Below are positions 1,498-30,240 of a stretch of 64,000 bases of DNA, piece by piece. A program made the translations under genes and the position numbers. A model generated the notes under the pieces. That model was not told the DNA's origin and made no database searches. It saw nothing but the letters and a program-made list of their open reading frames with translations. This DNA comes from Erysipelothrix amsterdamensis (lineage in GTDB: Bacteria; Bacillota_I; Bacilli_A; Erysipelotrichales; Erysipelotrichaceae): contig NZ_OW659496.1 of the NCBI RefSeq assembly GCF_940143175.1, positions 744,001 through 808,000 on the forward strand. The letters run 5' to 3'. Each line of letters starts with the position of its first letter. Within the stretch, counting starts at the first letter, position 1.

Positions 1498-2277
1498 ATG
1501 ATGAAGGTAACCTCAGTTTACACATTCAAAGGTGGTGTTGGGAAAACAATTACGACAATCATTATGGCCATCGCATTTGCACTTCGAGGTCAAAAAGTTT
1601 TGGTAATCGATATTGATCCCCAATGTAATTTAACTAATTTCTTTGTTCCAAACTATGAAGGTTTAACGCTTTGTGATTGTATTTTTGAAGCGCATAAAGT
1701 AAATACAGTAATTCAAGCTACACGATTTAAAAATATTAGTATTATTCCAGCTTCTATGAATTTAGTATTGAGTAATGATGCTCTTATAGTTGCGAAAGGT
1801 TTAACACATTTAAAATTTAGAAAAATGATAGAATCTTTAGATGAAGGATTTGAACGATGTCTGATTGATTGCCCACCGTACTACACAGAATTAGTTGTAA
1901 ACGCCCTTTTTGTCAGCAATGAAGTGATTATTCCATTTCAAGGGGATAAGAACTCACAAGATGCATTTCATTTAGTCACAAAGACTTTAGATGATTTTAA
2001 TGGCGAATATTCAAGAAGAATATCATACCGAGGATTGTTTACAGGTAAAAAACGCAATAATAACGACACCAAAATCTACGATGAATATTTAGAGCGTGAT
2101 TTAATTTATGATAATGCGATTCGTTTCCAAGGAAAGCCAGCAGATGAAATGTACAGTACAGGAAAGTCAATATTCGAAAAAGAGACAGGGATTTCAAAAG
2201 ACTATCGTGAGTTTATAGAAGAGTATTTACTTCGAGAGAGTGGAAAGGAGTATGAATTAAGTCGTGAGTTTGTTTGA
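1498..2277 (+). CDS. parA: ParA-type partition ATPase
   Basis: A 259-residue ParA/Soj-like ATPase without an N-terminal DNA-binding extension. It shows the deviant Walker A KGGVGKT near residue 14, the A' segment VLVIDIDPQCNLTNFF near 36-51 and Walker B-like RCLIDCPPY near 121. GAAAGGAG precedes ATG-ATG; either Met may be used. It overlaps parB by 14 nt, so the two are translationally coupled. Role: ATP-driven segregation of the element, or, with its ParB partner, global control as IncC/KorB do in IncP plasmids. The second possibility is of interest because of the repeated palindromes in the transfer operon. Confidence 0.9.
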   Translation: MMKVTSVYTFKGGVGKTITTIIMAIAFALRGQKVLVIDIDPQCNLTNFFVPNYEGLTLCDCIFEAHKVNTVIQATRFKNISIIPASMNLVLSNDALIVAKGLTHLKFRKMIESLDEGFERCLIDCPPYYTELVVNALFVSNEVIIPFQGDKNSQDAFHLVTKTLDDFNGEYSRRISYRGLFTGKKRNNNDTKIYDEYLERDLIYDNAIRFQGKPADEMYSTGKSIFEKETGISKDYREFIEEYLLRESGKEYELSREFV

Positions 2278-2962
2278 TATTAAAAATGGTACAGATATGA
2301 GTAATGCGACGTATGCAGCAGTAGCCAAACCTAAGTTAATTCTTATTGATGATTTACTCGATCATGTTGATAATCGTGAATATCAGAAGGAACGTATTGA
2401 CGCACTTGTGTATAATATTAAACAGGATGGGTTGCTTCAACCGATTGTGATTACTCCAAGTAATGAATTAGAAGGAAAATACACAATTTTGGCGGGGCAC
2501 CATCGTGTACAAGCATATAAACGATTGCGTGAGATTGATGATCAGGATATGTATGAAGCAATTTTGAGTATTGTTTTACCATCAATGGATGAAACGGACA
2601 AACTTAAATATGTGCTTACAACAAATGTAAATCCTGAATTAAGTTTTAAGGAAAAGGAAGCACTTCTTAAAACTGCTGATCACCTTTACCAAAAACTCAT
2701 TGCAATTGGCAAGAAACCTATGGGCCGAAAACGTGATTGGCTCGTGAATGTGACTGGACTTTCTCAATATTTTGTTAGAAAATTTGAAGGGGACCCAGAA
2801 AAAAAGAAAGAAAGTCCTACGCTTGATGATCAAGCTAAAAAGTTGATAAAACAATTTGAAAAACAATATGCATTTCTTGCAGACTACTATGCAGAATTGG
2901 ATTTTGAAACACAGCAAAAAATCGCTTCATGGATTTTAGATTTAGAAAGTATAACACGTTAG
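2264..2962 (+). CDS. parB: ParB/KorB-like DNA-binding partition protein
   Basis: A 232-residue ParB-family protein. The N-terminal nuclease-like domain is clear: RIDALVYNIKQDGLLQPIVI, then the CTPase-type box AGHHRVQAYKRL near residues 84-95. A central helical region (KEALLKTADHLYQKL, SQYFVRKF) would be the helix-turn-helix. The GTG start at 2264 lies inside parA, with GGAAAGGAG upstream at a rather long spacing; the next in-frame ATG (2297) lacks a ribosome site and would trim the N-terminus. Expected role: binding a centromere-like site for segregation, possibly also operators. The 17-bp palindromes between 9.06 and 20.3 kb are candidate targets, but nothing here proves binding. Confidence 0.85.
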   Translation: MSLFDIKNGTDMSNATYAAVAKPKLILIDDLLDHVDNREYQKERIDALVYNIKQDGLLQPIVITPSNELEGKYTILAGHHRVQAYKRLREIDDQDMYEAILSIVLPSMDETDKLKYVLTTNVNPELSFKEKEALLKTADHLYQKLIAIGKKPMGRKRDWLVNVTGLSQYFVRKFEGDPEKKKESPTLDDQAKKLIKQFEKQYAFLADYYAELDFETQQKIASWILDLESITR

Positions 2963-4932: not shown

Positions 4933-7900
4933 ATGCAGAAAACAATTAAAAAATTTGGTATTTCATTGTTGACATTTCTTTTGGTTATTACAGGCTTTGT
5001 TACCAATGTAAGTGCTGATAACGGTGAGGTATATCATAATGATGACATGTCAGTTGTAGTGATGGTAAGTCGAACGATTAAGGATGACACAGTTACCCTT
5101 GATTTCGATACCAAAACTACAGAAGACATCACAATTAAGGAATTTAAAATAGCTGATGATTCACTTCAAAAACAGGATCATCGTTACGCTTATGTAGTAG
5201 GTGAGAATGGGAATTACAAGTTTACCGTCGAATACACACGGAATCTTTTACTTGAAAAAGAAAACGAAGAAAATAAAATCATCGAGCGACAAGAAAAATT
5301 CGAGTTCTCACTTGATGTCGATGAACTTGAAGAAAAAAATGAAACAAATATTGAAGCATCTCAGGATGTGGAGCTTGAGCTTGATGAAGATTCTCATAGT
5401 GAATTAAAGGAAGAACAAAAACAGGAGCACTTAAAAACGGAAGAACACGAAAGCGTTCATGATAAAACGGCTCCAACATCAAGTAATTCGCAAAAAATTA
5501 TTCAAGATATTAGTGTTACTGTTTTGGAAAATGGCACACGTACATTGAGTGCGCTTCCTAATATGAATGATTTAGATAAGTTTATTAATGAAGACGAATA
5601 CATTTGTATTAACAACGAAACAGGTGTTATTTCGATTGAACGACTAGTTAAGCCGCAACCAGCCATTAGACGCTTTAGACGAAGTATAGGGAATGTTGTG
5701 ACAACAGGGCAAAAAGTCATTCCTGCGGGTGAAACCATCACCGTCACATGGCGCGCAGACCGTAGTTTTTACTGGCAATTATGGGGTGGGATTTCAGAAC
5801 TTTTTGTAAATGGAAATCGTGCTTACTGTCTTGAACCATCCATCTTTGATCAAGTCGCAACCAACAATGCATCTTTCACAACCTTAGATAGCGTTAACGG
5901 TGTGCGCGTGCATCCAGATGGTCGTCTTGCATTTACCCCATCATCTAAACAACGCATTAACCTTGAGCTTATTGCGAATTATGGATACAAGTATCCAGGA
6001 CATCAAACCATGCGTTATGAATGGGCAACCAAAAAACTTATCTGGAATGAAATGGGATGGGATGTGACCGGTGGTCCTAATGTTGATACTGAAATGGCAG
6101 AAATTCGTTCATTAATAGCACAACATAACGATAAACCATCGTGGCATGGCCAATCACGCAAGGTGAAGAAAGGTCAAGTAATTGATTTATCTGAAGCAGG
6201 ATTAAATAAGTATAGTGTTAATGACAAACTAACACATGGATTAGAAATCATAAAAGATAGCGGCAACACTTTAAAAGTTCGAGTAGTTGAAAAAGATGCG
6301 AGATTAGTGATTAGAAAGAAAGGTGGATCAGAGCAAGGTACATCATATGTTTATTCGGACGGTCATTCTCAAAAAGTAGCTCACTTTAGATTTCAAGATC
6401 CAACGGATGCAAATATAAAATTTGAAATTAAAACAGAAAATATTAGCTTTAAGAAAACCGATACGAATGGAAGCCCTGTTGCAGGCGTTGTGATTGAAAC
6501 ATCGTATCAATCTGATATGAGTGGGCAAACATGGAAGCGTACAACGGACAAGAACGGACAATTTGTCAGTCGTGACTGGGAAACAGATCGAATGATGTAT
6601 TATCGTGAAGTATCAGCACCAGCACCTTATGTGGTTGATCCAACAATTAAGTCTCATCGGGTGGTGGAAGGCGAGAATAAAAACATTATTTCGATGGTGA
6701 ATAAATTCCAACGTTCTAACATCACGCTTACTAAAATTGAAAATGACTGGGATCAAAATTTTCCAGAAAATAAAGGTAAGAAATTAAGTGGGGCAAGCAT
6801 TGAACTTTATGCAAAGGAAGATATTTATGAAGGAAGTCATCGTGTTTATCAAGCAGGAGACCTCTTGGGGACAAAAGTAACTGATTCAACAGGAAAAGTT
6901 GTCTTTAAAAATGTACCAATCGGTCAATATTACGCTAAAGAAACTAAAGCGCCAGAAGGTTATGTTCTCTTCCAAGGACAATGGGATATTTCGATTAAAT
7001 ATGATGGCGGTAAGCCAACAGTCAAAGTTACCGAAACCGGTAAGACAGTTACCAACCAAGTTATTTACGGTCAAGCTAAACTCATTAAGACCGATGGAAA
7101 TCGTAAGCTTTTAGGGGGCGTTGTGTTTGGCGTCTATCGACTTGATGGAACCCTTGTTGAAGAGAAAACGAGTGATGCCAATGGTGAGATTCTTACATCA
7201 AATCTTCGTTATGGTGATTACTACTTTAAAGAACACCAATCCTTAAGTAATTATTGGCCAGATGAAACTCCAGTTTACTTCTCTATTCAACAACATAAAG
7301 AGGTGAAACATGTAACAATGGCTAACAAACAAGTCCTTGTACATCTTGAATGGAGTAAAACAAATGAAGATGGAATGCCTCTTGAAGGGGTTGGATTTAA
7401 AGTAAAAAATACAAAGACCAATGAATTTGTAACACTATCTTATGCAGATGGTAAGAAGGTGGTTGAAGAGGATATCTGGTTTACCGATGCACAAGGGGAT
7501 GTATTTATTAAAGGTTTAATCGAAGCTGGTGAATATGAGCTTGTGGAAGTGGAACCTCTTGATGGATACCAAGTAATACAGCCGCTTAAATTTACGGTTG
7601 ATAACAAGCAAAATTACATTGATCTCGGGGCGCTTATTGGACTGTCTCTCAATGTTGGAGACGTTGTGAATGAGTGGAATAGAGGAAATCTTAAAATTAC
7701 TAAATGTGATATTGATACTAAAGAAGCTTTATCAAACTTTGGTTTCAAGCTCTACGATATGAAAAATAATTTGATTGGCTACTATGAGACAGGTGCTGAT
7801 GGTACTGTAAGCATCGATAACTTAAAATACGGCACTTATGTTGTAGAGGAAGTAAAAGTTGGTGGCGACTACGGAATTGACCCTCAAAAAGCACGTCAAG

Positions 7901-9447
7901 AAGTATTCATTGAAGAACATGGGAAAACATATGAGGTAACCTTTGAAAATAAACATGCAGATATTAAAACGAATGCTTCGTTTGTAGCGTGTGATAAGGA
8001 AAATCCGGATATTGTGACCCTTGTGGACGTCGTTAAATACACTGATTTACAAGTTGGTAAAGAGTATGTACTTGATGGAACACTCATGTATAAAGATATT
8101 CAAAAACCCGTGAAGATTGATTATGAAATTGTTAAAGGGCAAACAGTATTCACACCTACATCAAAAGATGGAAGCATTGAAGTTAAATTTACATTAGATG
8201 CAAGCAAGTTAGAAGCTAAAACACTGGTTGTGTTTGAAGATTTATCACGCGAGAAACAATCAGTCGTTGTTCATCATGACATTAACGATATTGATCAAAC
8301 AGTAACAATTCCAGAAATTGGTACAAGTTTAACGTATACAAATCGTGATAAAGAAACACCGAATATCGTCACATTGACGGATAAAGTACGTTATAACGAT
8401 TTAGTCCTTGGCAAAGAATATACTGTTAAAGGTCAACTTCAAGATGGGCTTACGGGCTTACCTTTACTCATTGATGGAAAAACAGTCGATGGTGAAACGA
8501 CATTTATCGCAAACCAAAAAGATGGCTTCGTGGATGTTACATTCACATTCGATCAAAATAAACTCGAGACAGAAAAAATCGTTGCGTTTGAAAATCTCTA
8601 TGAGAAAGAGCGACTTATCGCAGTTCATGCGGATCTTGAAGATAAAGACCAAACAATTGAGATTATTACATATCGCATTTTAAAGAAAGATATTGATACC
8701 AAGGAAGTACTTAAAGAAGCTGAATTCACGCGCTATGACTTAGATGGAAACATCATTGAGGTATTAAATACAGATGAAAAAGGTGTTGTTGAATTTAAGT
8801 TATTCAAAGGTGAAGTCAATACAGCTAAGGAAACAGGAGCACCTCTTGGTTACAAGTTAAGTGATGAAGTTGTAACGATGGATACAAATGTGAGTGAAGA
8901 TGGAAGCTTATTTGTTATCGAATACTATAACGAACTATTACCTGATGATGCTTTACCAGCAACTGGAGTTTCAAACTCATTTACGATTGTCGCCACGATA
9001 CTCGTAATGTTAGGAGGAATTTTTATCGCATTAAACAAATTATTTAATAAACGAAAAGTAAACGTGGTAGGTTCTACCACAATAAAGAATAAACCAACCA
9101 ATTGGTTTAAAAATATACTAAACGGATTCGCTGTATTAGCGACTTCTGCTATCGTTTTAGGAATCAGTACTGTGAGTGTAAGAGCGGATGTGATTGATGA
9201 TTTAAACAGTCTTTGGAATAACTCAAAAAGAAATATTGGTCGACTTTTAACTTTAATTGGTACTGTCATTACTTCGATTGCGACAGTGGTTTTATTTATT
9301 GCATTTGTTATCCTTTTATTTAATTTTGTGATGTCAAGACGCCGCGGTGAGGATACAAGTGAAAAGATGATGCCGCTTTTTGGAGTACTTATTGGTTTCG
9401 CAATCGTCATTGCGTTATCTGCCTTCGGTTGGGCTTCATTAATTTAA
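4933..9447 (+). CDS. Giant LPXTG adhesin fused in frame to a VirB2/TrbC-like pilin
   Basis: A 1,504-residue product with AAGGAGG before ATG. Signal peptide about 1-28, then a Glu/Lys-rich stretch and a thioester-domain-like region (AYCLEP, Cys about 299; the expected Gln motif reads ATKKLIW, so the bond may be missing). Next come several Cna_B/SpaA-type domains (FKKTDTNGSPVAGV, AKLIKTDGNRKLLGGVVF, LKITKCDIDTKEAL) and two VaFE/T-Q ester-type domains (KTLVVFEDL ... DQTV; KIVAFENLY ... DQTI). A sorting signal LPATG, hydrophobic stretch and KRK tail would normally end the protein near residue 1376. Instead a 17-bp palindrome (9064) reads through in frame as VVGSTT into a second signal peptide (cleavage after VRA) and a two-helix conjugative pilin of about 100 residues. 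The pilin part may be initiated separately at ATA 9082, but no ribosome site is visible there. Confidence 0.85.
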   Translation: MQKTIKKFGISLLTFLLVITGFVTNVSADNGEVYHNDDMSVVVMVSRTIKDDTVTLDFDTKTTEDITIKEFKIADDSLQKQDHRYAYVVGENGNYKFTVEYTRNLLLEKENEENKIIERQEKFEFSLDVDELEEKNETNIEASQDVELELDEDSHSELKEEQKQEHLKTEEHESVHDKTAPTSSNSQKIIQDISVTVLENGTRTLSALPNMNDLDKFINEDEYICINNETGVISIERLVKPQPAIRRFRRSIGNVVTTGQKVIPAGETITVTWRADRSFYWQLWGGISELFVNGNRAYCLEPSIFDQVATNNASFTTLDSVNGVRVHPDGRLAFTPSSKQRINLELIANYGYKYPGHQTMRYEWATKKLIWNEMGWDVTGGPNVDTEMAEIRSLIAQHNDKPSWHGQSRKVKKGQVIDLSEAGLNKYSVNDKLTHGLEIIKDSGNTLKVRVVEKDARLVIRKKGGSEQGTSYVYSDGHSQKVAHFRFQDPTDANIKFEIKTENISFKKTDTNGSPVAGVVIETSYQSDMSGQTWKRTTDKNGQFVSRDWETDRMMYYREVSAPAPYVVDPTIKSHRVVEGENKNIISMVNKFQRSNITLTKIENDWDQNFPENKGKKLSGASIELYAKEDIYEGSHRVYQAGDLLGTKVTDSTGKVVFKNVPIGQYYAKETKAPEGYVLFQGQWDISIKYDGGKPTVKVTETGKTVTNQVIYGQAKLIKTDGNRKLLGGVVFGVYRLDGTLVEEKTSDANGEILTSNLRYGDYYFKEHQSLSNYWPDETPVYFSIQQHKEVKHVTMANKQVLVHLEWSKTNEDGMPLEGVGFKVKNTKTNEFVTLSYADGKKVVEEDIWFTDAQGDVFIKGLIEAGEYELVEVEPLDGYQVIQPLKFTVDNKQNYIDLGALIGLSLNVGDVVNEWNRGNLKITKCDIDTKEALSNFGFKLYDMKNNLIGYYETGADGTVSIDNLKYGTYVVEEVKVGGDYGIDPQKARQEVFIEEHGKTYEVTFENKHADIKTNASFVACDKENPDIVTLVDVVKYTDLQVGKEYVLDGTLMYKDIQKPVKIDYEIVKGQTVFTPTSKDGSIEVKFTLDASKLEAKTLVVFEDLSREKQSVVVHHDINDIDQTVTIPEIGTSLTYTNRDKETPNIVTLTDKVRYNDLVLGKEYTVKGQLQDGLTGLPLLIDGKTVDGETTFIANQKDGFVDVTFTFDQNKLETEKIVAFENLYEKERLIAVHADLEDKDQTIEIITYRILKKDIDTKEVLKEAEFTRYDLDGNIIEVLNTDEKGVVEFKLFKGEVNTAKETGAPLGYKLSDEVVTMDTNVSEDGSLFVIEYYNELLPDDALPATGVSNSFTIVATILVMLGGIFIALNKLFNKRKVNVVGSTTIKNKPTNWFKNILNGFAVLATSAIVLGISTVSVRADVIDDLNSLWNNSKRNIGRLLTLIGTVITSIATVVLFIAFVILLFNFVMSRRRGEDTSEKMMPLFGVLIGFAIVIALSAFGWASLI
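9064..9080 (+). repeat. tra palindrome 1, in-gene
   Basis: Perfect GTGGTAGGTTCTACCAC. It is read in frame as VVGSTT between the LPXTG module and the pilin module of the fused gene. Confidence 0.9.
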
Positions 9448-9477
9448 TTTTTAATTTTTAATTTTGTGATGATAAGT

Positions 9478-9494
9478 GTGGTAGGTTCTACCAC
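9478..9494 (+). repeat. tra palindrome 2, before trbL-like gene
   Basis: Perfect copy. Six nucleotides separate it from AAGGAGG, with ATG at 9512. Confidence 0.9.
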
Positions 9495-9511
9495 ACTCGA
9501 AAGGAGGGTGT

Positions 9512-10345
9512 ATGGGTTTTATATTCCAATGGTTGTTGGATGAATTTATATCGATGCTTTTTGTGGTGATGGAACTCATTTATTCTGTGGTTTCATCGAA
9601 TATCTTTGAAAATTCATACATACAATTCATACTAATTATTTTATCAAGTTTTGCAGGTGTATCATTCTTCTTAGGTTTAGTACCTGCAATATCAAAATAT
9701 GTGTCGGAAAAGAATATCAATATCAATGAATTGATCAAAAATATCTTTACAGGATCACTTTTTGCTTTGTTATTTACACCGTTTTCAACGGCTATTTATC
9801 AGGTTGGTTATTTTTTATCAAGTGAAGCATTAACGATTGCAGGAAAGGCATCATCTATTATTACGAAAGATAATATATTCGATGGAGCAAGCCTCGTTAC
9901 AATGATTAATGGTTATACAGGCTGGGGCATTATCATTAAAAGTAGCGTCGTTTTAGCTATGGTTGTTTTACTCATTATTATTCTATGGCAACAATATATA
10001 CGAGCTGTAGATTTACTTATTTATCAACTGCAAGGTGTCATTTCGGTCTTTAGTATGGTGGGTGGTGATAATTCAGCTTTTAAAACCTATCTTAATGGCG
10101 TGCTGGCACTGACGATTACGCAATCGATTCAAGTAATGTTTTTATACGGTGGGCTTACGATTGTTCGGTTGGGTGGCATTACGGATATGTTTATGGCGCT
10201 TGCCTTCTTTGTGGCTGGAGTAGGCCTTCCTAAGAAAATGAAAGAATGGTCCTACACAACAGGAACTGCAAAAGGAATCTCTGCACTCGCTCAAACAAGT
10301 ATGCAAACTTACACCACACTTCGTATGACTACGATGATGCAGTAG
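9512..10345 (+). CDS. TrbL/VirB6-like conjugation membrane protein
   Basis: A 277-residue polytopic membrane protein with about six hydrophobic helices (for example IQFILIILSSFAGVSFFLGL, SSVVLAMVVLLIIILW, ITDMFMALAFFVAGVGLP) and a cytoplasmic tail. Its place right after the pilin and right before VirB3- and VirB4-like genes fits the VirB6/TrbL inner-membrane channel subunit of a type IV secretion machine. A palindrome and AAGGAGG precede the start. The assignment rests on topology and gene order more than on motifs. Confidence 0.75.
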   Translation: MGFIFQWLLDEFISMLFVVMELIYSVVSSNIFENSYIQFILIILSSFAGVSFFLGLVPAISKYVSEKNININELIKNIFTGSLFALLFTPFSTAIYQVGYFLSSEALTIAGKASSIITKDNIFDGASLVTMINGYTGWGIIIKSSVVLAMVVLLIIILWQQYIRAVDLLIYQLQGVISVFSMVGGDNSAFKTYLNGVLALTITQSIQVMFLYGGLTIVRLGGITDMFMALAFFVAGVGLPKKMKEWSYTTGTAKGISALAQTSMQTYTTLRMTTMMQ

Positions 10346-10355
10346 GAGATGCAAT

Positions 10356-10372
10356 GTGGTAGATTCGTCCAC
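10356..10372 (+). repeat. tra palindrome, degenerate
   Basis: GTGGTAGATTCGTCCAC, matching the consensus except in the centre and one arm position. It lies between the trbL-like gene and the virB3-like gene, farther from the ribosome site than the perfect copies. Confidence 0.6.
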
Positions 10373-10401
10373 GTACATTTAACTTTGAAAGGAGTGAAAT
10401 T

Positions 10402-11241
10402 ATGACCCAGCGAAAACAGAAAGAATTTGTTTATTTATCACAACTTGATCGTGGTGATAAGTTCTATAAGTGGAAATTAGGAAACTTTGTAATCGCGATA
10501 GTTCCTTTACTTGTATCAGCGTTATTCAAATCGGGTTGGGGTCTTATTTTTTCGATTGTTTTCTTAGTTACAACTTTAGTTTTAACTTTTGAAGTATACC
10601 CCGAAGAACATTTGATGAATTATTTGAAAGTGAGAGTGATCTATATGTTTAAACGAAAAGTAGATGTAAACCAACAGGTATATTCTCAAAATAGATTAAT
10701 GCAGATTTCAAATCAAATTAAATTTGGAAAAATATATGAGCATCATATCACTTTAAGTAAAGGAGGGTATGCAGTTTTGTTTGAGTATCAACAACTTAAC
10801 CCTGATTTAATGAGTGATTATGAAATTGAAATTGCAACGAAACAGAAAGCAGCATTTTTAAGCAATTTCCCTAAATTAAAAGAAATGGTCGTAGAATTAT
10901 CCCAATCCTATGATGATGTTATCGCATATAATAAGGAGCTTTTAAAAACAGCGCCTCCACATCTTCACACCTGGATTGAGAAACGTATCGCTTATATTGA
11001 AAGATCGAGCCGCAGTAATAAAGAAGATGAAAAAACAACGATTTTATATTTAGAAAACAAAGACGATGATATTAATCAATTTATTCGTGACGTTGAACGT
11101 TTAGGAATAGAAAACAACGTGTCGCTACATATCTTACAAGGCGATAAATTGAAACGTGTAATCGCATCAATTATTGCGGATGTACGCTATAACGATATTT
11201 ATCCAGAAAATACAGCACAAGCATTAGAAATGGAGGACTAG
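10402..11241 (+). CDS. VirB3/PrgI-like conjugation protein
   Basis: A 279-residue protein after GAAAGGAG. Residues about 1-75 hold two close membrane helices (FVIAIVPLLVSALF, IFSIVFLVTTLVLTF) after a short basic N-terminus, as in PrgI/VirB3-like subunits. The remaining ~200 residues are soluble and resemble the N-terminal domain that in other systems is part of VirB4 (KIYEHHITLSKGGYAVLFEY ... IADVRYNDIYPEN). The stop lies 2 nt before the virB4 start, so the pair is tightly coupled. Role: inner-membrane platform of the mating channel. Confidence 0.75.
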   Translation: MTQRKQKEFVYLSQLDRGDKFYKWKLGNFVIAIVPLLVSALFKSGWGLIFSIVFLVTTLVLTFEVYPEEHLMNYLKVRVIYMFKRKVDVNQQVYSQNRLMQISNQIKFGKIYEHHITLSKGGYAVLFEYQQLNPDLMSDYEIEIATKQKAAFLSNFPKLKEMVVELSQSYDDVIAYNKELLKTAPPHLHTWIEKRIAYIERSSRSNKEDEKTTILYLENKDDDINQFIRDVERLGIENNVSLHILQGDKLKRVIASIIADVRYNDIYPENTAQALEMED

Positions 11242-11243
11242 CA

Positions 11244-13148
11244 ATGTTTGGAAGAAAAAAGAAAAAACAACAACTTCAAGAGAGCATTAAAGATCTTGAA
11301 TTTAAAGACATGATTCTGCCTAACCGTATGCAGTCTCGATATGATCGCATTGAATTTAGTAATGGTAATTATGTTTCGTATGTTGCTATTAAAATCTATC
11401 CACGACGTACCGATACCAAACTTATTTTAAAAGATCTTGGATCGGTAAAAGGTGTATCAATCCTTTTTGATTTATCAGAACTATCGATATCAACATTCGA
11501 GAAACAGCTTAATAAAACGGTTCAAAATGAAGCAGATGGTATGAAGCGCAAAAGTAATGTGGATATCGTTAAACAAGGTGTGAATGAAAAAGCACAAAGT
11601 AACTTTATGACAGAACTTTACAATAATAATGAGAAAACATACAAAGGAACAGTCATTATCAAGATGGTTGCACCAAGTATAGATGAACTTAATACATTAC
11701 GCAAAACAGTGAAATCTAAATTAAGTGCACGGTCTATTTTGGCGGATAATCTTAGCTATCGTCAAAAAGATGCCTATGCATCATTTATGCCATTCAATAA
11801 CAACAAGATTCATGGATTTATTGAACACCCTTATACTGCGCAAACATTTGCGAATTTATGGTTGCCAAACTATGCGTCATGGGTTCAAGCCAAAGGGTTT
11901 CCCTTAGGCCAGATTGAAAATGGTGGTGCTTTCTACTTTGATCCCTTTGAACGGAGAATGAGTGTATCAAATTCTAATGGATTTGTGGTTGGAATGTCTG
12001 GGCGTGGTAAATCGTTCTTACTTAAAATACTGATTTTTAATATGGTATTAAACGGTAAGAATGTCATCATGCTCGACCCTAATAATGAATTTGCAGATCT
12101 TGTAACAAATTTAGGTGGGCAGGCAATACCCTTACCACTTCTGAATGTTTTAGAGATTCGTGTTCATGATAATGAATTGAAACAAGAAATCATGAATATG
12201 AAAGATGCGGAAATTTCAGACTTTAAGTTCCATCTTAATTTCTTAAGAACATGGTATACAACCTATGGAACAGATATTGAAAACAAAGAGGATAAATGCT
12301 TTGAATTCTTATGTAAGCATATATACGCGAAATTCAATATTAATGAGGAGATGGATTATTTAAATTTACCGGCTCACCAATATCCACGATTACGCGATGT
12401 TTATCATGAAGCAGTAGCCTTATCTAAGAAACGATTATCTGAACTTGTGGATGAAGGCATTATTTGGAAGCCAGAGCAGTTCTTGTCAGTAGCACAGACG
12501 CTTCAAACCGCAGTGCTTGATGGTAGTGATAGCCAATATTTTGATGTATATACCTCGGCTCCTATGGATTTGAGCAAGCAAATAATTCTTGCAATTCAAC
12601 TAAAAACCATTAACAATCTAAAACCAGCTACAAAATCTGCAATCTACCTCAACATGAATAATTACATTAGTGCGCTCATTTTAAGTGACCGGACAACACC
12701 ATTTCTTTATGGATGGGATGAATTACACATGGCGGTTGATAAACGTGCTGATGCAGATAATCAAGCGATTAAAGAGTTTGCGACAATTTATGCTATCGCG
12801 CGTAAGTTTGAAGTTGCTACTTGGGCAGCAACAACCTCACCTCAACACCTTAAGCATCATAGCGTGGTAGATTCAACCACAACAATTTTCTCACAATGTG
12901 CGTTCAAATTTATCTTCCAAGTTGTCGGTGATGACTACAAGCATCTTATAGAGATGGTAAGTAACTTGAATGAGATTGTAAAAGAAAAAGTTCAACTCTT
13001 ACCACGATTTGAATGTATCTCTGTAATTGGTGAAAACATCAATTTCAAGGTAAAAGTGAAAGGGGCCAATCTCAATGATCTACAGGGTGATGAAGATCCT
13101 TACCTTGTTGAAATGGCACAGCTATTCGGTGATGCAGGTGGTCGATAG
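11244..13148 (+). CDS. virB4: VirB4-type conjugation ATPase
   Basis: A 634-residue AAA+-like ATPase that powers pilus and channel assembly. Walker A GMSGRGKS lies at about residues 250-257 and Walker B-like LYGWDELHMAV near 488; the ending (DPYLVEMAQLFGDAGGR) fits the family. At 634 residues it is shorter than many VirB4 proteins, consistent with part of the N-terminal domain residing in the preceding gene. A degenerate copy of the 17-bp palindrome is embedded at 12864, encoding VVDSTT, the same frame as in other in-gene copies. Confidence 0.9.
   Translation: MFGRKKKKQQLQESIKDLEFKDMILPNRMQSRYDRIEFSNGNYVSYVAIKIYPRRTDTKLILKDLGSVKGVSILFDLSELSISTFEKQLNKTVQNEADGMKRKSNVDIVKQGVNEKAQSNFMTELYNNNEKTYKGTVIIKMVAPSIDELNTLRKTVKSKLSARSILADNLSYRQKDAYASFMPFNNNKIHGFIEHPYTAQTFANLWLPNYASWVQAKGFPLGQIENGGAFYFDPFERRMSVSNSNGFVVGMSGRGKSFLLKILIFNMVLNGKNVIMLDPNNEFADLVTNLGGQAIPLPLLNVLEIRVHDNELKQEIMNMKDAEISDFKFHLNFLRTWYTTYGTDIENKEDKCFEFLCKHIYAKFNINEEMDYLNLPAHQYPRLRDVYHEAVALSKKRLSELVDEGIIWKPEQFLSVAQTLQTAVLDGSDSQYFDVYTSAPMDLSKQIILAIQLKTINNLKPATKSAIYLNMNNYISALILSDRTTPFLYGWDELHMAVDKRADADNQAIKEFATIYAIARKFEVATWAATTSPQHLKHHSVVDSTTTIFSQCAFKFIFQVVGDDYKHLIEMVSNLNEIVKEKVQLLPRFECISVIGENINFKVKVKGANLNDLQGDEDPYLVEMAQLFGDAGGR
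12864..12880 (+). repeat. tra palindrome, degenerate, inside virB4
   Basis: GTGGTAGATTCAACCAC, read as VVDSTT. The VirB4 context may have constrained it away from the perfect sequence. Confidence 0.55.
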
Positions 13149-13174
13149 GTTTACAAGTAACACAAAAGAAATGC

Positions 13175-13191
13175 GTGGTAGGTTCTACCAC
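13175..13191 (+). repeat. tra palindrome 3, before a small membrane gene
   Basis: Perfect copy. A 5-6 nt spacer leads to AAAGG and ATG 13209. Confidence 0.9.
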
Positions 13192-13208
13192 GCTAGAAAG
13201 GTCTTCAA

Positions 13209-13547
13209 ATGAATGTTTATGTATCACTTCTATTAAGCTTTTTATATTCATATAAATTTGCTCAAATTAGTGAAGTAAAGAAAAATGATAGATCAAGAAG
13301 AATAATTTCAATACCAACATTCTTCCTGTGCTGGATAAATTTCTTAATTTATATATGCTGGGCATATTATTACCAACATAACCAACTCAATACAGCTCTA
13401 AATATATTTAATGTATATGGGCTAATAACTGTTTTAGTCTTTACAAAGTTACTAGCGAAAACGCCTGTTAGAAGGTCTTCGATTCATTCTAGAGTAATTA
13501 ACTTTGCAATTGTCGTGCTGGTAATTCTTGGTTGGTGTATCAAATAA
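13209..13547 (+). CDS. Small membrane protein of the transfer operon
   Basis: A 112-residue protein with three hydrophobic segments (VYVSLLLSFLYSYKF, FFLCWINFLIYICWAYYY, VINFAIVVLVILGW). The palindrome plus ribosome site at its start is the signature of the operon. Its last 96 nt overlap the 3' end of an opposing gene. Function unknown; it could be an entry-exclusion or channel accessory protein. Confidence 0.6.
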   Translation: MNVYVSLLLSFLYSYKFAQISEVKKNDRSRRIISIPTFFLCWINFLIYICWAYYYQHNQLNTALNIFNVYGLITVLVFTKLLAKTPVRRSSIHSRVINFAIVVLVILGWCIK

Positions 13548-14246
13548 TGATTTCAAAAGTATGTAAAAAGAAGGAAACGATGCACTGATGAAAAGAGTTC
13601 TGTAAAGATCAATTTGCTCTTTCAAAACCACCCCATTAAAAGTAGTCATTGCTTCTTGAAAAGTTATTGATGGATTTGTCTCTTTGATCGTGTTGAATAG
13701 CATTTCTTGTAAATATGCCGAACCATAAGAGGCTATAAACACACCAACAAATAAATAGGAAATTAATATGGAATATTGCAAGGAAGCAAATAGTTTTTTT
13801 GAAGATTTGGGGGTGTTAGTTGTATCGAGTGTAAATGTAGCAAAAAGCAAAAAGAGTAAGATTGCAAGAAGTAAAGAAAAGAACAGGTGAGCTAAGAACA
13901 ATGTTAGAGTAGTCGATTTGTAAGTCCTCCCAAAAGGCAGAGTGAATAATAATATCATTGAAAGCACAAATAATAGAGATAGCATTATTGATATCATCGA
14001 AAACCCTATCATAGGACTGTTGTAAGGCACATTGTTTTTAAGTCTTAAGACAAAATCAATTAAAAAAATAACTGCATAAACTAGAAAAACAACAAACATA
14101 ACAGGAAGTGCAATATTTTTGAAGAATATACAAGTAATCATGATTGTCGCAATACTAGTGCCTATAAAACACCACACAATATAAAAATTAGTTCGATTGT
14201 TAATGTAGTAATCTTTTGTAGCAAAATCATTAAAAAAATCATTCAT
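13452..14246 (-). CDS. Polytopic membrane protein on the opposite strand
   Basis: A 264-residue protein starting MNDFFNDFATKDYY. The start at 14246 is favoured over the Met codon 9 nt upstream because GGGGAG then has normal spacing. It has about six hydrophobic helices (IVWCFIGTSIATIMITCIFF, IALPVMFVVFLVYAVIFLI, ILLFTLPFG, LFFSLLLAILLFLLF, ILISYLFVGVFIASYG). It is transcribed against the transfer operon, convergent with the 112-residue gene, and paired with another minus-strand gene at 14414. No family recognised. The orientation suggests separately expressed cargo inserted in the operon. Confidence 0.65.
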   Translation of the reverse strand: MNDFFNDFATKDYYINNRTNFYIVWCFIGTSIATIMITCIFFKNIALPVMFVVFLVYAVIFLIDFVLRLKNNVPYNSPMIGFSMISIMLSLLFVLSMILLFTLPFGRTYKSTTLTLFLAHLFFSLLLAILLFLLFATFTLDTTNTPKSSKKLFASLQYSILISYLFVGVFIASYGSAYLQEMLFNTIKETNPSITFQEAMTTFNGVVLKEQIDLYRTLFISASFPSFYILLKSLFDTPTKNYQHDNCKVNYSRMNRRPSNRRFR

Positions 14247-14285
14247 TATTTCCATCTCCCCTCTATATGATTATAACAAAGAAAT

Positions 14286-14302
14286 AGGGTAGAACCTACC
14301 AC
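14286..14302 (-). repeat. tra palindrome, degenerate in its first two bases
   Basis: AGGGTAGAACCTACCAC. It is followed by 6 nt and AAGG, keeping the operon layout, and lies before a 30-codon frame. Confidence 0.7.
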
Positions 14303-14320
14303 ACTAGAAAGGACAAGCTA

Positions 14321-14413
14321 ATGAAAACAGATGATAATAAAAATCAAGAAATAATAATTGCGAACACTGATGAGGAATATTTGCAATTTATAGAAAGAAT
14401 TAAATCTAAATAA
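14321..14413 (+). CDS. 30-residue small protein
   Basis: ATG follows the palindrome, 6-nt spacer and AAAGGA exactly as for larger genes of the operon. The product is acidic and hydrophilic (MKTDDNKNQEIIIANTDEEY and ten more residues). It lies between two minus-strand genes, so it may be the remnant of the gene that once filled this slot, or a true small protein. Confidence 0.4.
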   Translation: MKTDDNKNQEIIIANTDEEYLQFIERIKSK

Positions 14414-15058
14414 TTATTTTGAAAAGAATTTCTCAATATATTTTAGTTGTTTCCCAAGTGTATTTACAAAATCTCTTTTCTTACCTGGAGTTTCGAGTTG
14501 AATAAGTGAGTGAAATGAATTTAAAAGATGGAATGCAATCCAATCATTTCCAGTATAAAAAAAGAGCAATGGATAAAAGTTTTGTGTGAAGCATGAAACT
14601 GAAAATGAGATATTGTTATTAATGTTGTAATTCAACCTTTTGTTACCATCAACTATAAGCATCGGAGGCTGATTGTTAAGTGGTGAATACAACGCGATTA
14701 TAGGAGTTTTAGAAACTGAATTTTGTGGTTTTTCATTGTTGTATCTAAACATTTCTTTATTATCAAAAAAAAGGACTTCTTTAAAAACCTGTGGTTGTTT
14801 AGTATAGAAATTAAGAATGTTTTCAATATTAAGAGTTATATTTATACTTCCATTATTGTAATAAAATGGTGCAGTGTAAGTCTCATATTTGTCATTATCA
14901 CTATCACCAAAACCAGAGGAGTAAACAATTTTATGGGCATGTTTTTCTATAAAACGACTCCATAATTTAAGAGTTTGCTTTTCTTCGAATGAGCTACCTT
15001 TGTTCTCGAAAAAATCGAACAGAGCATCTATATCATTTTTTAATAAAAACTTCTCCAT
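14414..15058 (-). CDS. Unknown soluble protein, minus-strand cargo
   Basis: A 214-residue protein starting MEKFLLKNDIDALFDFFENK, with AAGCGAG-type weak ribosome signal upstream. It has no membrane helix. One stretch, PPMLIVDGNKRLNYNINN, recalls the DGNxR box of ParB/sulfiredoxin-like folds, but the match is short. It is rich in Asn, Phe and Tyr and lower in GC than the transfer genes. With the neighbouring membrane protein it forms a two-gene reverse-strand cassette in the middle of the operon. Function unknown; an immunity, exclusion or defence role would be a guess. Confidence 0.6.
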   Translation of the reverse strand: MEKFLLKNDIDALFDFFENKGSSFEEKQTLKLWSRFIEKHAHKIVYSSGFGDSDNDKYETYTAPFYYNNGSINITLNIENILNFYTKQPQVFKEVLFFDNKEMFRYNNEKPQNSVSKTPIIALYSPLNNQPPMLIVDGNKRLNYNINNNISFSVSCFTQNFYPLLFFYTGNDWIAFHLLNSFHSLIQLETPGKKRDFVNTLGKQLKYIEKFFSK

Positions 15059-15161
15059 GTGATATCTCGCTTTCTTTAATAATTATACTAATTTTAGTAT
15101 ATCAAACATAACCTATGAATAAAAGTTGACACTATCTTCACACTAGAAAGGATGATGTCCT

Positions 15162-16271
15162 ATAAAAACAAAACTACTGATCTCATTTTTAAAAAGCAAT
15201 ACTGGTAAGAAAATAATAAAGCTAACTGCAATCGTAGCGGTAGGTTTACTCTTTCTAATAGCAATTATTCCTGTAGCATTCATTGAAGCAATTAATCCGT
15301 TTAAAAGTAATCCATATTTAACTAATGAAATTGAAAAAGGTAATCGACGAGATGATGTATATGATAAAGCACTCAATGAAATCAAACAGAGTAAAAACAC
15401 TGATGAACTTTATGTCAATTTGGATATGGTCCGTATCTTTGAATATTTTGTTGTCTATGATACGAAAAAAGAGTTAACGGAAGTTACGCAAGAAGACGCA
15501 AAGAAACATCTTGAAACCTACTATATTTATCAAGAAGATAAAGAAATTAAGATACCAAAATTAAACGATGAAGGTGAAGCGGTAATAGACGAAGAAACAG
15601 GAGAAGCGCTTCATGAAACTAAAGTAATAACGATTGAGAAAGCAAAGAGTCTCGATCAAATTATTGAAGATTTAAGTGTTGATTATCCAGCACTCCTTAA
15701 TGAAGCCTATGCGCTTCAAATTGTGAATATTTATGACTTCCAAAAAAATATTACAAAGCGACGGATTCATGGTGGTGGAAATGGGGAACCAGTCGCAAAA
15801 GAATGTTATGTATATTACGAACCATTTGGTGAGTATTTGAAAGGTGGAGCCCATTATGCAGTTGATTTATCAGGTGAAAGAGGAACTCCAATTATGGCGG
15901 TTCAGGATGGTGTTATTAAAGAAATTGTAAATCAATATGATGATACCCCGGTCGGTTTAAGTTTTAATGAAGCGCAAGGATATTCAGGTAGAGAAAATTA
16001 TGTTCTCATTGAACATGATGCTGCACTTGCTGGAGCATCTTCATTTAGTACACGATATATGCATATGACTGCGTGGGACGAGATGCCTTATAAGGTAGGG
16101 GATGTGGTAAAGATTGGGGAAATTATTGGTTACATGGGAAACAGTGGTTTTTCAACTGGATATCATCTGCATTTTGAGACTTGGGTTGATGGTAAACGCA
16201 TTGATCCCCTCACGTTTTTTGATTTCGGCCAGTTGCGGGACAGTTCCAATTATAAAGGATGTGGATATTAA
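15162..16271 (+). CDS. Membrane-anchored M23 peptidoglycan hydrolase, apparent AUA start
   Basis: The 369-codon frame begins at ATA 15162, 10 nt after AAAGG, and reads IKTKLLISFLKSN. A membrane helix follows (LTAIVAVGLLFLIAIIPVAF). The first conventional in-frame starts are TTG 15420 and ATG 15426, which would remove the anchor. A single-base deletion after ATG 15155 would also restore the frame, so an indel is the rival explanation. Residues about 210-350 form an M23/LytM domain: HYAVDLSG and GYHLHFE supply the metal ligands. The enzyme would open the cell wall locally for the mating channel, as transfer-operon hydrolases do elsewhere. A degenerate palindrome-like context (CACTAGAAAGG) precedes it. 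Confidence 0.8.
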   Translation: MKTKLLISFLKSNTGKKIIKLTAIVAVGLLFLIAIIPVAFIEAINPFKSNPYLTNEIEKGNRRDDVYDKALNEIKQSKNTDELYVNLDMVRIFEYFVVYDTKKELTEVTQEDAKKHLETYYIYQEDKEIKIPKLNDEGEAVIDEETGEALHETKVITIEKAKSLDQIIEDLSVDYPALLNEAYALQIVNIYDFQKNITKRRIHGGGNGEPVAKECYVYYEPFGEYLKGGAHYAVDLSGERGTPIMAVQDGVIKEIVNQYDDTPVGLSFNEAQGYSGRENYVLIEHDAALAGASSFSTRYMHMTAWDEMPYKVGDVVKIGEIIGYMGNSGFSTGYHLHFETWVDGKRIDPLTFFDFGQLRDSSNYKGCGY

Positions 16272-16277
16272 AAAAGT

Positions 16278-16294
16278 GTGGTAGGTTCTACCAC
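16278..16294 (+). repeat. tra palindrome 4
   Basis: Perfect copy, 6 nt before AAGGAGG of the 49-residue gene. Confidence 0.9.
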
Positions 16295-16311
16295 GCATGA
16301 AAGGAGGAAAT

Positions 16312-16461
16312 ATGAGGCGCAGAAGAAAAATAGTGATTTTAATTATAGCAATTATGCTTTTATTTGTACTGTTATCCATGAATTTGAATTTTTATGAATT
16401 CATTCCGTTTGTATTACTTCTTTTAGTAATGCTTCTTATTGTACTAGTATTTCTATTATAA
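16312..16461 (+). CDS. 49-residue double-helix membrane protein
   Basis: ATG follows the palindrome and AAGGAGG. The product begins MRRRRK, then two hydrophobic helices (IVILIIAIMLLFVLLSM and FIPFVLLLLVMLLIVLVFLL). Its size and very strong ribosome site suggest a real small membrane protein. Function unknown. Confidence 0.65.
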   Translation: MRRRRKIVILIIAIMLLFVLLSMNLNFYEFIPFVLLLLVMLLIVLVFLL

Positions 16462-16614
16462 AAATATAAAAAATTAAAATTTTAGTGGAGGTGGGAGATT
16501 GTATATGTTTTAGGGATTTCCAAACACACTTTCACAGTTCTTAGATTAACTCTGATGTACTTTGTAAAAAATTAGATGAAAGATTAGAAAGGTATATGAA
16601 GGAAGGTGAAAAAA

Positions 16615-17487
16615 GTGCTAAACAGGGTTGGTAAAAAACAAACAATGATTCTCGTTGTTATAATAACGCTTATTTCATTCGTATTTTGTTTTAGTATTTA
16701 TTCGTGGAGATCATCACTTAAGGTGAATGAGAAAAAAGACGTACCTATGCAGGAATTGAAGTTGAGTGTTACTGAATACGAATTAGAACTTGGAGATGCT
16801 CCACCTGATTTTAAACAATTTATTATGAAATCAGATATTAAAGAAAACGTAGATATTGATTTAAGTCAATTCAATAAGGATGAAATAGGTGAGTATGAAA
16901 TCAAGTATCGTTATACGGATCTAAATATTCCGTACGGAAATTCTCTTATTGTTAAAATACATGACACCATGCCCCCGTTTATGAAACTTAAAAATTTAGT
17001 GATGGAAATGGGAAGTACAGTTGATGTCATGCAATTTGTTGAAGAATATCAAGACTATCAAGAAGTCGTTTTCTCATTTAAAGATGAACCGGATATGAAT
17101 CGCAAAGGAAATCAATATATTAGAATCCTTGCAACAGATGCAAGTGGAAATTCTACATATAAAACAGTGATGTTAACGCTTAATGAGAAAATTGAGTCTT
17201 CACCCAATCATAACGCTGCTGGTGTGGTAGAACCTACCACACCTAATAAAGAACAACCATCATCTGCACCTTCATCATTCGAATCAAAACAACCACCTTC
17301 ATTTCCTAATAAGAATGGTTCTTATGTTAAATTTCCAATTGAACAACACGGAACATTTGATGATGCTTTTATAGCATGTCAAAGAGAACGAGCGGAGCAA
17401 ATAAACTCAGGTGTTACAGGTATTGGTAGTTGTAGACCTTATAAAGTCAATGGAATCAATAAAGGTTATGAGCTGATTTGGGAATAA
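16615..17487 (+). CDS. Membrane-anchored Ig-like protein, paralogue of the 3.7-kb gene
   Basis: A 290-residue protein. GTG 16615 is preferred because AAGGAAGG lies 8 nt upstream; GTG 16606 in frame is possible. It has one N-terminal helix (TMILVVIITLISFVFCFSIYSW) and an extracytoplasmic Ig-like region (MPPFMKLKNLVMEMGSTVDV ... YKTVMLTLNE). A Pro/Ser linker carries a perfect palindrome read as VVEPTT (17224), then a C-terminal module with two Cys (DDAFIACQRER, GIGSCRPYKVNG). The layout copies the protein at 3713. It may display a C-terminal module at the mating surface, but no function is established. Confidence 0.65.
   Translation: MLNRVGKKQTMILVVIITLISFVFCFSIYSWRSSLKVNEKKDVPMQELKLSVTEYELELGDAPPDFKQFIMKSDIKENVDIDLSQFNKDEIGEYEIKYRYTDLNIPYGNSLIVKIHDTMPPFMKLKNLVMEMGSTVDVMQFVEEYQDYQEVVFSFKDEPDMNRKGNQYIRILATDASGNSTYKTVMLTLNEKIESSPNHNAAGVVEPTTPNKEQPSSAPSSFESKQPPSFPNKNGSYVKFPIEQHGTFDDAFIACQRERAEQINSGVTGIGSCRPYKVNGINKGYELIWE
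17224..17240 (-). repeat. tra palindrome 5, in-gene
   Basis: Perfect GTGGTAGAACCTACCAC, read in frame as VVEPTT in the linker of the Ig-like protein. Confidence 0.9.
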
Positions 17488-17844
17488 AATAGCATCCTTT
17501 CAAATAAGGTTGAAAGCGTAATTGAAAAAGGAAATACTTTAATTTATACTCCTACACAAATGAGGGGTAACTATGTGTTAAAAAGGATTCATTTTATTTA
17601 TAAGTTCATTTAAAAATACTTAAAAAAACTTAAAAAAAACGATATATCAAAATGAGTTTTTGATAAGGTCTAGAAGATGCTAAATATATCATTTTATATA
17701 TCAAAATAAACTGCTTAAAAACCCAGTATTTAAAGGCTTTAGCGATGAACTCGTTCAGCGCTGTGATGGGAATGGGTACATTTATGGGTACATTCCCTTA
17801 TCTTGCAGACAAAAAGAGGAAAAATGGGAACAGGAGTTGAGATT
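17488..17844 (+). other. Intergenic region before the first RHH gene
   Basis: No gene is seen. The sequence contains A-rich repeats (two ACTTAAAAAAA units), two copies of ATATATCAAAAT near 17642 and 17697, and an imperfect inverted repeat built on GGGTACAT at about 17769-17795. Such repeats next to relaxosome-type genes could be operators or accessory binding sites. The evidence is positional only. Confidence 0.35.
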
Positions 17845-18177
17845 ATGGAAAAGATAAAAGAGACTAAAATTAGAATCAATGAAGCCGATCTTAATCGTTT
17901 AAAATGCTTAACTGGCGCAACTACGATGAATGGAGCCGTGGATATAGCAATTAAATACACGCTTGATAGTTATCGCAAAGATATTGATTTTGATTTATTA
18001 AATTTTGTAGAACGAGTTGTTAAGGAGCGAATGCAACAGTATACGCAAGAATTATTTACTCGTATTGATGCAGTACAACAGGAGTTTGAACAATTATATA
18101 TCATAGAGGCTGAAGTAACAGAAGCTATCAATGACCTAGTCTTTGCAATTCAACAAAAGCAAAGACCACAAAAATAA
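17845..18177 (+). CDS. Ribbon-helix-helix-like protein 1 (possible relaxosome or regulatory factor)
   Basis: A 110-residue protein starting MEKIKETKIRINEADLNRLK, with CAGGAG upstream. The strand TKIRI followed by two helices (NEADLNRLKCLTG, NGAVDIAIKYTLDSY) is the ribbon-helix-helix pattern, and a helical tail follows. The protein at 18526 aligns over the same region. Two RHH-like genes directly upstream of the relaxase fit MobC/TraY-type accessory proteins that bind oriT. They could equally be repressors that bind the 17-bp palindromes. Confidence 0.6.
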   Translation: MEKIKETKIRINEADLNRLKCLTGATTMNGAVDIAIKYTLDSYRKDIDFDLLNFVERVVKERMQQYTQELFTRIDAVQQEFEQLYIIEAEVTEAINDLVFAIQQKQRPQK

Positions 18178-18190
18178 AGATAATAAAAAT

Positions 18191-18207
18191 GTGGTAGGTT
18201 CTACCAC
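18191..18207 (+). repeat. tra palindrome 6
   Basis: Perfect copy, about 6 nt before AAAGGAAG of the 67-residue membrane protein gene. Confidence 0.9.
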
Positions 18208-18232
18208 GCCCAGAAAGGAAGAAGTTATTAAG

Positions 18233-18436
18233 ATGATTTATGCATTATTGTTAATTTGGTTAGTTACCTTTACCGCAAGCTTCTTTATTTTAGATATAGC
18301 AAGTAAACGACTTGAATTACCCAATAAAAGGAATCGGATCTGTTTTTGCTTAAGATTCTCTTTATTGATAAGTACAGCTTTTACGGTGTTACTTTTTGTG
18401 CTTCATTTATTGACGGTTTTAAATATATTTTATTAA
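18233..18436 (+). CDS. 67-residue membrane protein
   Basis: The frame starts MIYALLLIWLVTFTASFFIL and has a second helix (LLISTAFTVLLFVLHLLTVL). The frame is open upstream, but the palindrome and AAAGGAAG set the start at ATG 18233, with a slightly long spacing. Function unknown. It separates the two RHH-like genes. Confidence 0.55.
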   Translation: MIYALLLIWLVTFTASFFILDIASKRLELPNKRNRICFCLRFSLLISTAFTVLLFVLHLLTVLNIFY

Positions 18437-18459
18437 GAATATAGATTTAGAGACAATAT

Positions 18460-18476
18460 GTGGTAGAACCTACCAC
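18460..18476 (-). repeat. tra palindrome 7, intergenic
   Basis: Perfect copy with the AAC centre. It lies 34 nt before the AAGGAG of the second RHH-like gene, so it does not keep the 6-nt spacing of the other intergenic copies. Confidence 0.9.
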
Positions 18477-18525
18477 ATGTGTTAAAGCAAAAATAATCAA
18501 TTAATTATGTAAGGAGTGATGAATT

Positions 18526-18831
18526 ATAGATAAGCAATATTTGTTAAGGCTATCAAAAGAAAAGATGGATACATTAAAGGTTCGCCTGGATGTTAATACC
18601 TATAATAAAGCAGTAAGAACAGCGCTTGATTTTACCTTAGATAACTACAACCGTAGTATTAAGAATGAAGCGATGGAAATTATTGATCTTACAATAACAA
18701 ATTCAATTCGTGCAGAAATTGTACCAGCATACAATTACATTAGAAAAGTGGAATACCTTCAATCACTGTTTAGAAAAAATCATGGAATCATGCTCAAAAC
18801 GCTTAGTGATGCAAAAGAAAAAATGTGGTAG
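18526..18831 (+). CDS. Ribbon-helix-helix-like protein 2, apparent AUA start
   Basis: The frame opens after TGA 18520 with ATT-ATA-GAT-AAG. AAGGAG at 18511-18516 lies 9 nt before ATA 18526 (6 nt before ATT 18523). No ATG or GTG occurs in frame until Met inside KEKMDTLK, which would delete the strand of the RHH fold; TTG 18541 is the first conventional alternative. The product (about 101 residues, DKQYLLRLSKEKMDTLK ... YNKAVRTALDFTLDNY) aligns with the protein at 17845. A perfect palindrome overlaps its last codons and precedes the relaxase. Likely DNA-binding accessory protein of the relaxosome, or an operon regulator. Confidence 0.65.
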   Translation: MDKQYLLRLSKEKMDTLKVRLDVNTYNKAVRTALDFTLDNYNRSIKNEAMEIIDLTITNSIRAEIVPAYNYIRKVEYLQSLFRKNHGIMLKTLSDAKEKMW

Positions 18832-18841
18832 GTTCTACCAC
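18825..18841 (+). repeat. tra palindrome 8, before the relaxase
   Basis: Perfect copy. It overlaps the last codons of the preceding gene (reading CGRFYHI-type frame shift at its stop) and lies 6 nt before AAAGGAGG of the relaxase. Confidence 0.9.
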
Positions 18842-18863
18842 ATTCTAAAAGGAGGTGATCCAG

Positions 18864-23948: not shown

Positions 23949-24353
23949 TTAATTATCTTCATCTAAATCTTTATTTATAATTTTACCGTTTTCACTTCGG
24001 TACTGCTCAAATAATTCAGCCATTTCATTATCCTTTAAAGCAAATTTTTCAAGTTGTTCCAGCATTTTAATTTCACTGATTTTGGCTTGCATCTTGTCAA
24101 AAATAATTCTATTTTCAATCTCTTTTTTTGTCTTTTGTTCCCAGGATTTGATATTTACTTTATCGATTATTTCAATTGGTTGAATTGGTGATACAAGCAC
24201 TTGATAAGGTGGCACAATTTTTTCAACACGTCCAGTAATTGGGTCGTTGTTGTAATCTGGAATTACCACCACATCATTTGGGTTAAGTTCTATTTTTGAT
24301 GAACATAATACACTGATTTCATTTTTAATTTCTTTCACTTGATAATATAACAT
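23949..24353 (-). CDS. Small unknown protein next to the oriT candidate
   Basis: A 134-residue protein starting MLYYQVKEIKNEISVLC, after AAAGGGAG. The N-terminal ~65 residues are beta-rich (DVVVIPDYNNDPITGRVEKI, PYQVLVSPIQPIEI) and the rest is a charged coiled coil ending in acidic residues. It resembles no family I can name. Opposite orientation to the transfer genes and adjacency to the inverted repeat at 24469 may link it to DNA processing. Confidence 0.6.
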   Translation of the reverse strand: MLYYQVKEIKNEISVLCSSKIELNPNDVVVIPDYNNDPITGRVEKIVPPYQVLVSPIQPIEIIDKVNIKSWEQKTKKEIENRIIFDKMQAKISEIKMLEQLEKFALKDNEMAELFEQYRSENGKIINKDLDEDN

Positions 24354-28717: not shown

Positions 28718-28774
28718 AAAAAACAACGCACCATCAAAGGGAACTGACCTAGTTCCAAGGTACGTTGTTTTTTT

Positions 28775-28776: not shown

Positions 28777-30240
<1,464 letters not shown>

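Follow-up and report, generated by a model that had tools for sequence, protein, structure and literature searches.

A surface adhesin with an LPXTG sorting signal and a pilin of a conjugative element are encoded in one uninterrupted reading frame in Erysipelothrix amsterdamensis, and a short palindrome that recurs along the element lies at their join. This fusion is confirmed as sequence. It lies in a window of 64,000 nucleotides (positions 744001 to 808000 of a single-contig 1.91-Mb genome), which is the whole stretch of DNA analyzed here and to which all coordinates refer. We consider it rather probable that the whole explanation combines an in-frame fusion of adhesin and pilin, a processed product, and palindromes that were already present as sites of the ParB protein of the element.

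One reading frame for an adhesin and a pilin

The fused open reading frame (ORF) (4933 to 9447, plus strand; 1,504 amino acids, open throughout) encodes, in this order, a signal peptide, SpaA/T-Q ester repeats, an LPATG sorting signal, and a signal peptide with a two-helix pilin. Residues 1 to 1377 make up the surface protein, comprising the first signal peptide, SpaA plus T-Q ester/VaFE repeats, and the sorting signal, and this half matches the profiles of SpaA (6e-76), T-Q ester (8e-44), and the VaFE repeat (2e-58). The cell wall sorting signal (8953 to 9057, plus strand) begins with LPATG at codon 8953 (residue 1341) and continues with a hydrophobic helix (residues 1345 to 1372) and NKRK (9046 to 9057). 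The marks of an LPXTG sortase substrate, an N-terminal signal peptide and an LPXTG-helix-positive tail, are thus present, the match to the Gram_pos_anchor profile reaches 19.5 bits, just under the cut-off of 20, and one sortase gene was found (PF04203, 7.7e-23). The sorting signal is not C-terminal, as 127 further residues follow with no stop between. Elsewhere in the window, the end of a large LPXTG protein gene (47493 to 53024) is duplicated ~18.7 kb away (28740 to 29039 versus 47458 to 47757), in a separate ORF (28775 to 29743), and an IS element at 46195 to 47474 has perfect inverted repeats of 35 nt and an rli23-like antisense RNA match at 47238 to 47337.

At the join, the palindrome GTGGTAGGTTCTACCAC (9064 to 9080, plus strand) is read in frame as V-V-G-S-T-T, a peptide (VVGSTT) on which we found nothing in the literature, and the RNA of the join folds at z = -3.3. 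Downstream of the palindrome lie IKNKPTNWFKN, the second signal peptide (residues ~1384 to 1418), and two more hydrophobic helices (residues 1435 to 1471 and 1476 to 1504), with the stop codon at 9445 to 9447. The pilin half (9082 to 9444, plus strand) consists of a basic N-region, the signal peptide (to 9186), and a mature VirB2-like pilin, with a probable cut between SVRA and DVIDD (GAT at 9187). It has the signal peptide, the two hydrophobic helices, and the place before TrbL/VirB6 of such a pilin, and its match to the Mbov_0395 family profile is weak and below the cut-off (E 0.0018). Single-sequence structure predictions were of low confidence, with a pLDDT of 52 for the C terminus of the fusion and 40 for ParB. 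The initial annotation had described a complete sorting signal (LPATG, helix, KRK) followed without a stop by a second signal peptide and pilin, with a palindrome at the join; these observations are all confirmed, and the interpretation placed on them is partly supported.

Helices alternate with basic segments across the C-terminal part of the fusion, and when this pattern is read by the positive-inside rule for membrane topology, a path through the membrane can be proposed. The ribosome would make one polypeptide from the adhesin and pilin frame, the first signal peptide would export the adhesin, and the sorting helix with its KRK would cross the membrane from outside to inside. A basic cytosolic loop (KRKVNVVGSTTIKNK) would carry the join, after which the second signal peptide would cross from inside to outside, the next helix from outside to inside, followed by SRRR, and the last helix from inside to outside. 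Given the alternation of helices and positive charges, sortase and signal peptidase could each act on the product, as had been suggested, and sortase would then release the adhesin to the wall while signal peptidase would release the pilin, in a fixed 1:1 ratio. On these features of the sequence, a polyprotein made from the fused ORF is plausible.

Related elements, which we found by VirB4 or relaxase within the same bacterial family, provide the comparison that had been recommended, and the pilin is a separate gene in all five examined (G278, G298, G398, G243, and G383). In each, a separate small gene for two hydrophobic helices adjoins TrbL at the pilin position, with a signal peptide in G278, G298, and G398, and in G398, G383, and G298 the adhesin-type genes stop after the sorting signal. 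The VaFE/SpaA LPXTG proteins beside T4SS genes in relatives share the signal peptide, the SpaA plus T-Q ester repeats, and the sorting signal but end there, whereas the protein described here continues into the pilin. Similarly, VirB2-like pilins next to TrbL/VirB6 (for example, of the Mbov_0395 family) are likewise small, with two hydrophobic helices, and directly before TrbL; in several relatives they carry a signal peptide, whereas here the pilin has no start of its own and forms the C-terminal part of the adhesin. Among the elements examined, the adhesin-pilin fusion was seen in this one alone. No close pilin relative was found among 296 genomes of the class, and searches of genome contigs, viral contigs, and plasmids by VirB4 or relaxase gave no close relatives, or only matches of ~25% identity.

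The only in-frame candidate starts for the pilin are a GTG at 9064, inside the palindrome, and a nonstandard ATA at 9082, with anti-Shine-Dalgarno pairing energies of -2.0 and -6.7 kcal/mol, respectively, set against a background of -4.0 ± 2.8 and values of -8 to -16 for most other gene starts of the element that were tested. Neither an ATG nor a Shine-Dalgarno sequence belonging to the pilin was found, which leaves the fused frame as the only ordinary route to the pilin; internal initiation at 9082, which had been put forward for checking, would have no usable start there, the codon being ATA and without a Shine-Dalgarno sequence. An alternative is that the open frame stems from an error in sequencing or from a recent, inactivating frameshift; the adhesin would then normally end with a stop at NKRK, and the pilin would be translated on its own or be dead. 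In the neighboring frame, KRK is followed directly by a stop codon, next to a short run of A, and the original stop was therefore probably lost through a small slip; in addition, a stop triplet in any frame lies at most 6 nt upstream of 22 of the 43 palindromes that precede a Shine-Dalgarno sequence. Undoing the slip, however, would still leave the pilin without an ATG and a Shine-Dalgarno sequence, and one base error cannot restore two ordinary genes, which argues for an established fusion and against a single base-calling error, although it is not proof. The pilin reading frame is moreover intact, and no second copy that could replace it was found in this genome. We therefore consider an error or inactivating frameshift rather unlikely.

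Palindromes of the element and of its relatives

There are 11 exact copies of GTGGTAGGTTCTACCAC in the 1.9-Mb genome, all of them between 9064 and 20294 of the window (~11 kb of the element), where 3 degenerate copies are also found, and with up to 3 mismatches the pattern occurs 15 times in the window versus 0.49 expected. No copy was found outside 9064 to 20294 in the whole genome with one mismatch allowed. A host-wide repeat was ruled out, the palindrome being confined to the element. Other genomes yielded no palindrome clusters, only 7 scattered single matches plus 1 viral contig.

Many copies, all on the plus strand as are the genes named with them, sit before a Shine-Dalgarno sequence (those at 9478, 10356, 13175, 14286, 16278, 18191, and 18825), with the start mostly 13 to 29 nt after the palindrome. 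The copy at 9478 to 9494 precedes the Shine-Dalgarno sequence of trbL, which encodes a TrbL/VirB6-like conjugation protein (9512 to 10345; TrbL_4, 8e-13), and a degenerate copy with 2 mismatches (10356 to 10372) precedes that of the next gene. Further copies in this position are found at 13175 to 13191, at 14286 to 14302 (degenerate, with 2 mismatches, before AGAAAGG and ATG), at 16278 to 16294, and in the intergenic region at 18191 to 18207, before AGAAAGGAAG, while the copy at 18825 to 18841 supplies the stop TAG of the ORF at 18541 to 18831 and precedes the Shine-Dalgarno sequence of the relaxase. The copy at 18460 to 18476 is intergenic and has the opposite center (GAACC). Others lie inside genes: a copy with 1 mismatch (12864 to 12880, read VVDSTT) in the VirB4-like ATPase (11244 to 13148), one at 17224 to 17240 (VVEPTT) in the ORF at 16606 to 17487, and those at 19182, 20007 (VVEPTT), and 20278 in the MobP3 relaxase (18855 to 20330). 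The center orientation of the exact copies tracks position, in that six with GGTTC stand before starts or at the join and five with GAACC stand elsewhere (chance probability for this sorting, 1 in 462). In the stretch from 13209 to 15058, two minus-strand genes (13452 to 14255 and 14414 to 15058) lie between palindrome copies within the otherwise plus-strand transfer operon and are perhaps inserted cargo.

The initial annotation had suggested that the stop codon between adhesin and pilin was lost when the palindrome inserted, and this claim did not hold up. That annotation mentioned neither the other copies of the palindrome (11 to 14 in all) nor the versions carried by related elements. A small mobile or inserted repeat acting in this way might be suspected from the crowding of many almost identical copies into one region, with some of them in frame within genes, but in the relaxase (19182) and VirB4 (12864), the two genes checked, the sites align gap-free to relatives and thus arose by substitution, not by insertion. 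The copies are also restricted to one element genome-wide, and relatives carry different sequences at equivalent positions. As the palindrome is an element-wide site that often lies exactly between a stop and the next Shine-Dalgarno sequence, a mobile repeat appears very improbable to us, and the palindrome is not supported as the cause of the fusion. It is instead an element-specific site, most likely a preexisting one: the fusion probably arose around a site already present at a gene junction, where the stop, the Shine-Dalgarno sequence, and the start were lost and the site stayed.

Related elements each carry a palindrome of their own in 4 to 16 copies, compared to at most 2 in shuffled controls, and its placement is like that seen here. 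A Shine-Dalgarno sequence plus start follows within 22 nt after 43 of 92 sites, versus 2.7% of random positions. The palindromes are ATGTCAA-N3-TTGACAT in G383 (14 copies), ATGTCAG-N3-CTGACAT in G398 (5 copies), CATAGCA-N4-TGCTATG in G420 (5 copies), CATGGCA-N4-TGCCATG in G310 (4 copies), and ACATGGA-N7-TCCATGT in G421 (5 copies); ATGGCAATNATTGCCAT is found in both G378 (11 copies) and G418 (9 copies), and the GTGAGCAAATTTGCTCAC type is found in the second elements of G418 and G420 (12 and 16 copies, respectively). Dispersed palindromes were absent from six other elements or fragments, and G335, which encodes ParA/ParB, has none in the 16 kb seen. By locus, L064/L052, L100, L098, L099, L051, L101, L067, and L131-L132 each have their own palindrome family, whose copies precede Shine-Dalgarno sequences and in many cases lie close to parAB. 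In G378 (L100, 16331 and 19206), the palindrome ATGGCAATNATTGCCATG includes ATG codons in frame, by which the next protein could gain MAIIAM or MAMIAM.

Their constant place just upstream of the Shine-Dalgarno sequence, together with a strong 7-bp stem and a 3-nt loop, would also suit RNA hairpins that act on the transfer mRNA, be it on its translation, its processing, or its stability, or on ribosomal frameshifting at the join. The bias in center orientation in this window favors such hairpins and counts against a symmetric DNA site, which does not predict a correlation of orientation with position. Several sites lie within genes, however, and both center orientations occur before starts in G378, G418, and G383. 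Furthermore, the sites match exactly within an element and differ between elements as ParB diverges, which points to recognition by a sequence-specific protein, and we regard control by RNA hairpins as having only a modest chance of being correct.

ParB as the putative binder

The most likely reading of these data is that the palindromes are putative parS/OB-like sites of an element-encoded ParB. A palindromic site of ~16 bp is present in several copies, only on the element, and the element has adjacent genes for ParA (1498 to 2277, plus strand) and for ParB (2264 to 2962, plus strand), the proposed palindrome binder. The parA region was available for six palindrome-bearing elements, and each of these encodes ParA next to ParB. 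All ParBs tested have a match to ParB_N or ParB_C in Pfam, in some cases under the curated cut-off, and the ParB profile searched against structures matches ParB/Noc/Spo0J proteins (best, 3e-16); in the ParB of this element, GHHR replaces GERR at the CTP motif.

ParBs that are 58 to 72% identical go with the same palindrome, and those that are at most 42% identical go with different ones. The ParBs of G378 and G418 are 72% identical and their palindrome is identical; in G418, one copy alone is not on the transfer contig, and it lies ~0.4 kb from the gene of this G418 ParB. The second ParBs of G418 and G420, which are 58% identical, lie among copies of their common palindrome, GTGAGCAAATTTGCTCAC. 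Two predictions of a shared palindrome were borne out, for the ParB pairs of G378/G418 and of the second elements of G418/G420. An out-of-family test went against the ParB reading, in that G029 has ParBs that are 28 to 29% identical, without dispersed palindromes.

In this window, parAB has no palindrome closer than 6 kb, whereas several relatives have palindromes beside parAB, and we therefore do not claim membership in a classical parABS locus for this element. A family of ~130-amino-acid proteins (23949 to 24353 in the window, minus strand; Y..KEI...DVVVIP) is present in each of the six palindrome-bearing elements for which ParA was available and is absent from those without palindromes. 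Because this family co-occurs as well, ParB is the best candidate and is not proven. If bound at 11 to 14 dispersed sites, ParB may serve partition, repression of the transfer operon, or both. More tentatively, and with the odds in our view against it, the elements might use a ParB whose specificity changes rapidly as an element-wide switch, bound to many self-specific sites between the stop codons and Shine-Dalgarno sequences of transfer genes, with one such junction having collapsed into an adhesin-pilin polyprotein that sortase and signal peptidase would cut.

Known systems and biological meaning

In RK2 (IncP-1), KorB is a ParB-family clamp that recognizes a 16-bp operator and acts in both partition and the silencing of replication and transfer genes (PMC11790492). 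The KorB/OB system resembles the present one in having a ParB-family protein (here, the proposed binder) and an operator of ~16 bp. In contrast, RK2 OB sites lie upstream of promoters (PMC11790492), while many sites here lie between a stop and a Shine-Dalgarno sequence in apparent operons, or inside genes; the hosts also differ, and here the site sequence varies between elements. In cluster K mycobacteriophages, the start-associated sequences (SAS/ESAS) are many short repeats at translation starts, about half of them with an upstream inverted repeat, and their function is unknown (PMC3203893). They share with the system described here the large number of start-associated copies and an inverted-repeat consensus that differs, there by subcluster. 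However, they belong to a phage, not a conjugative element; the SAS is an asymmetric repeat of 13 bp located at the start, the ESAS pairs two imperfect repeats of 17 bp around a spacer of variable length, and the passages that describe them mention no ParB link (PMC3203893). The present system combines features of KorB/OB and SAS/ESAS and matches neither in full. We found no description of such a site system in conjugative elements in the literature searched, an absence that is not proof of novelty.

With nine ParB genes with sites and two pairs of diverged ParBs that share one site, these elements would offer a readily testable case of ParB-site coevolution. The site system also hints at a second role for the partition proteins of integrative elements, namely, control of transfer gene expression through sites near the starts of genes. 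If the fusion is expressed, it would represent a naturally occurring polyprotein from which two different export-linked enzymes yield equal amounts of an adhesin for the wall and a subunit of the conjugation pilus.
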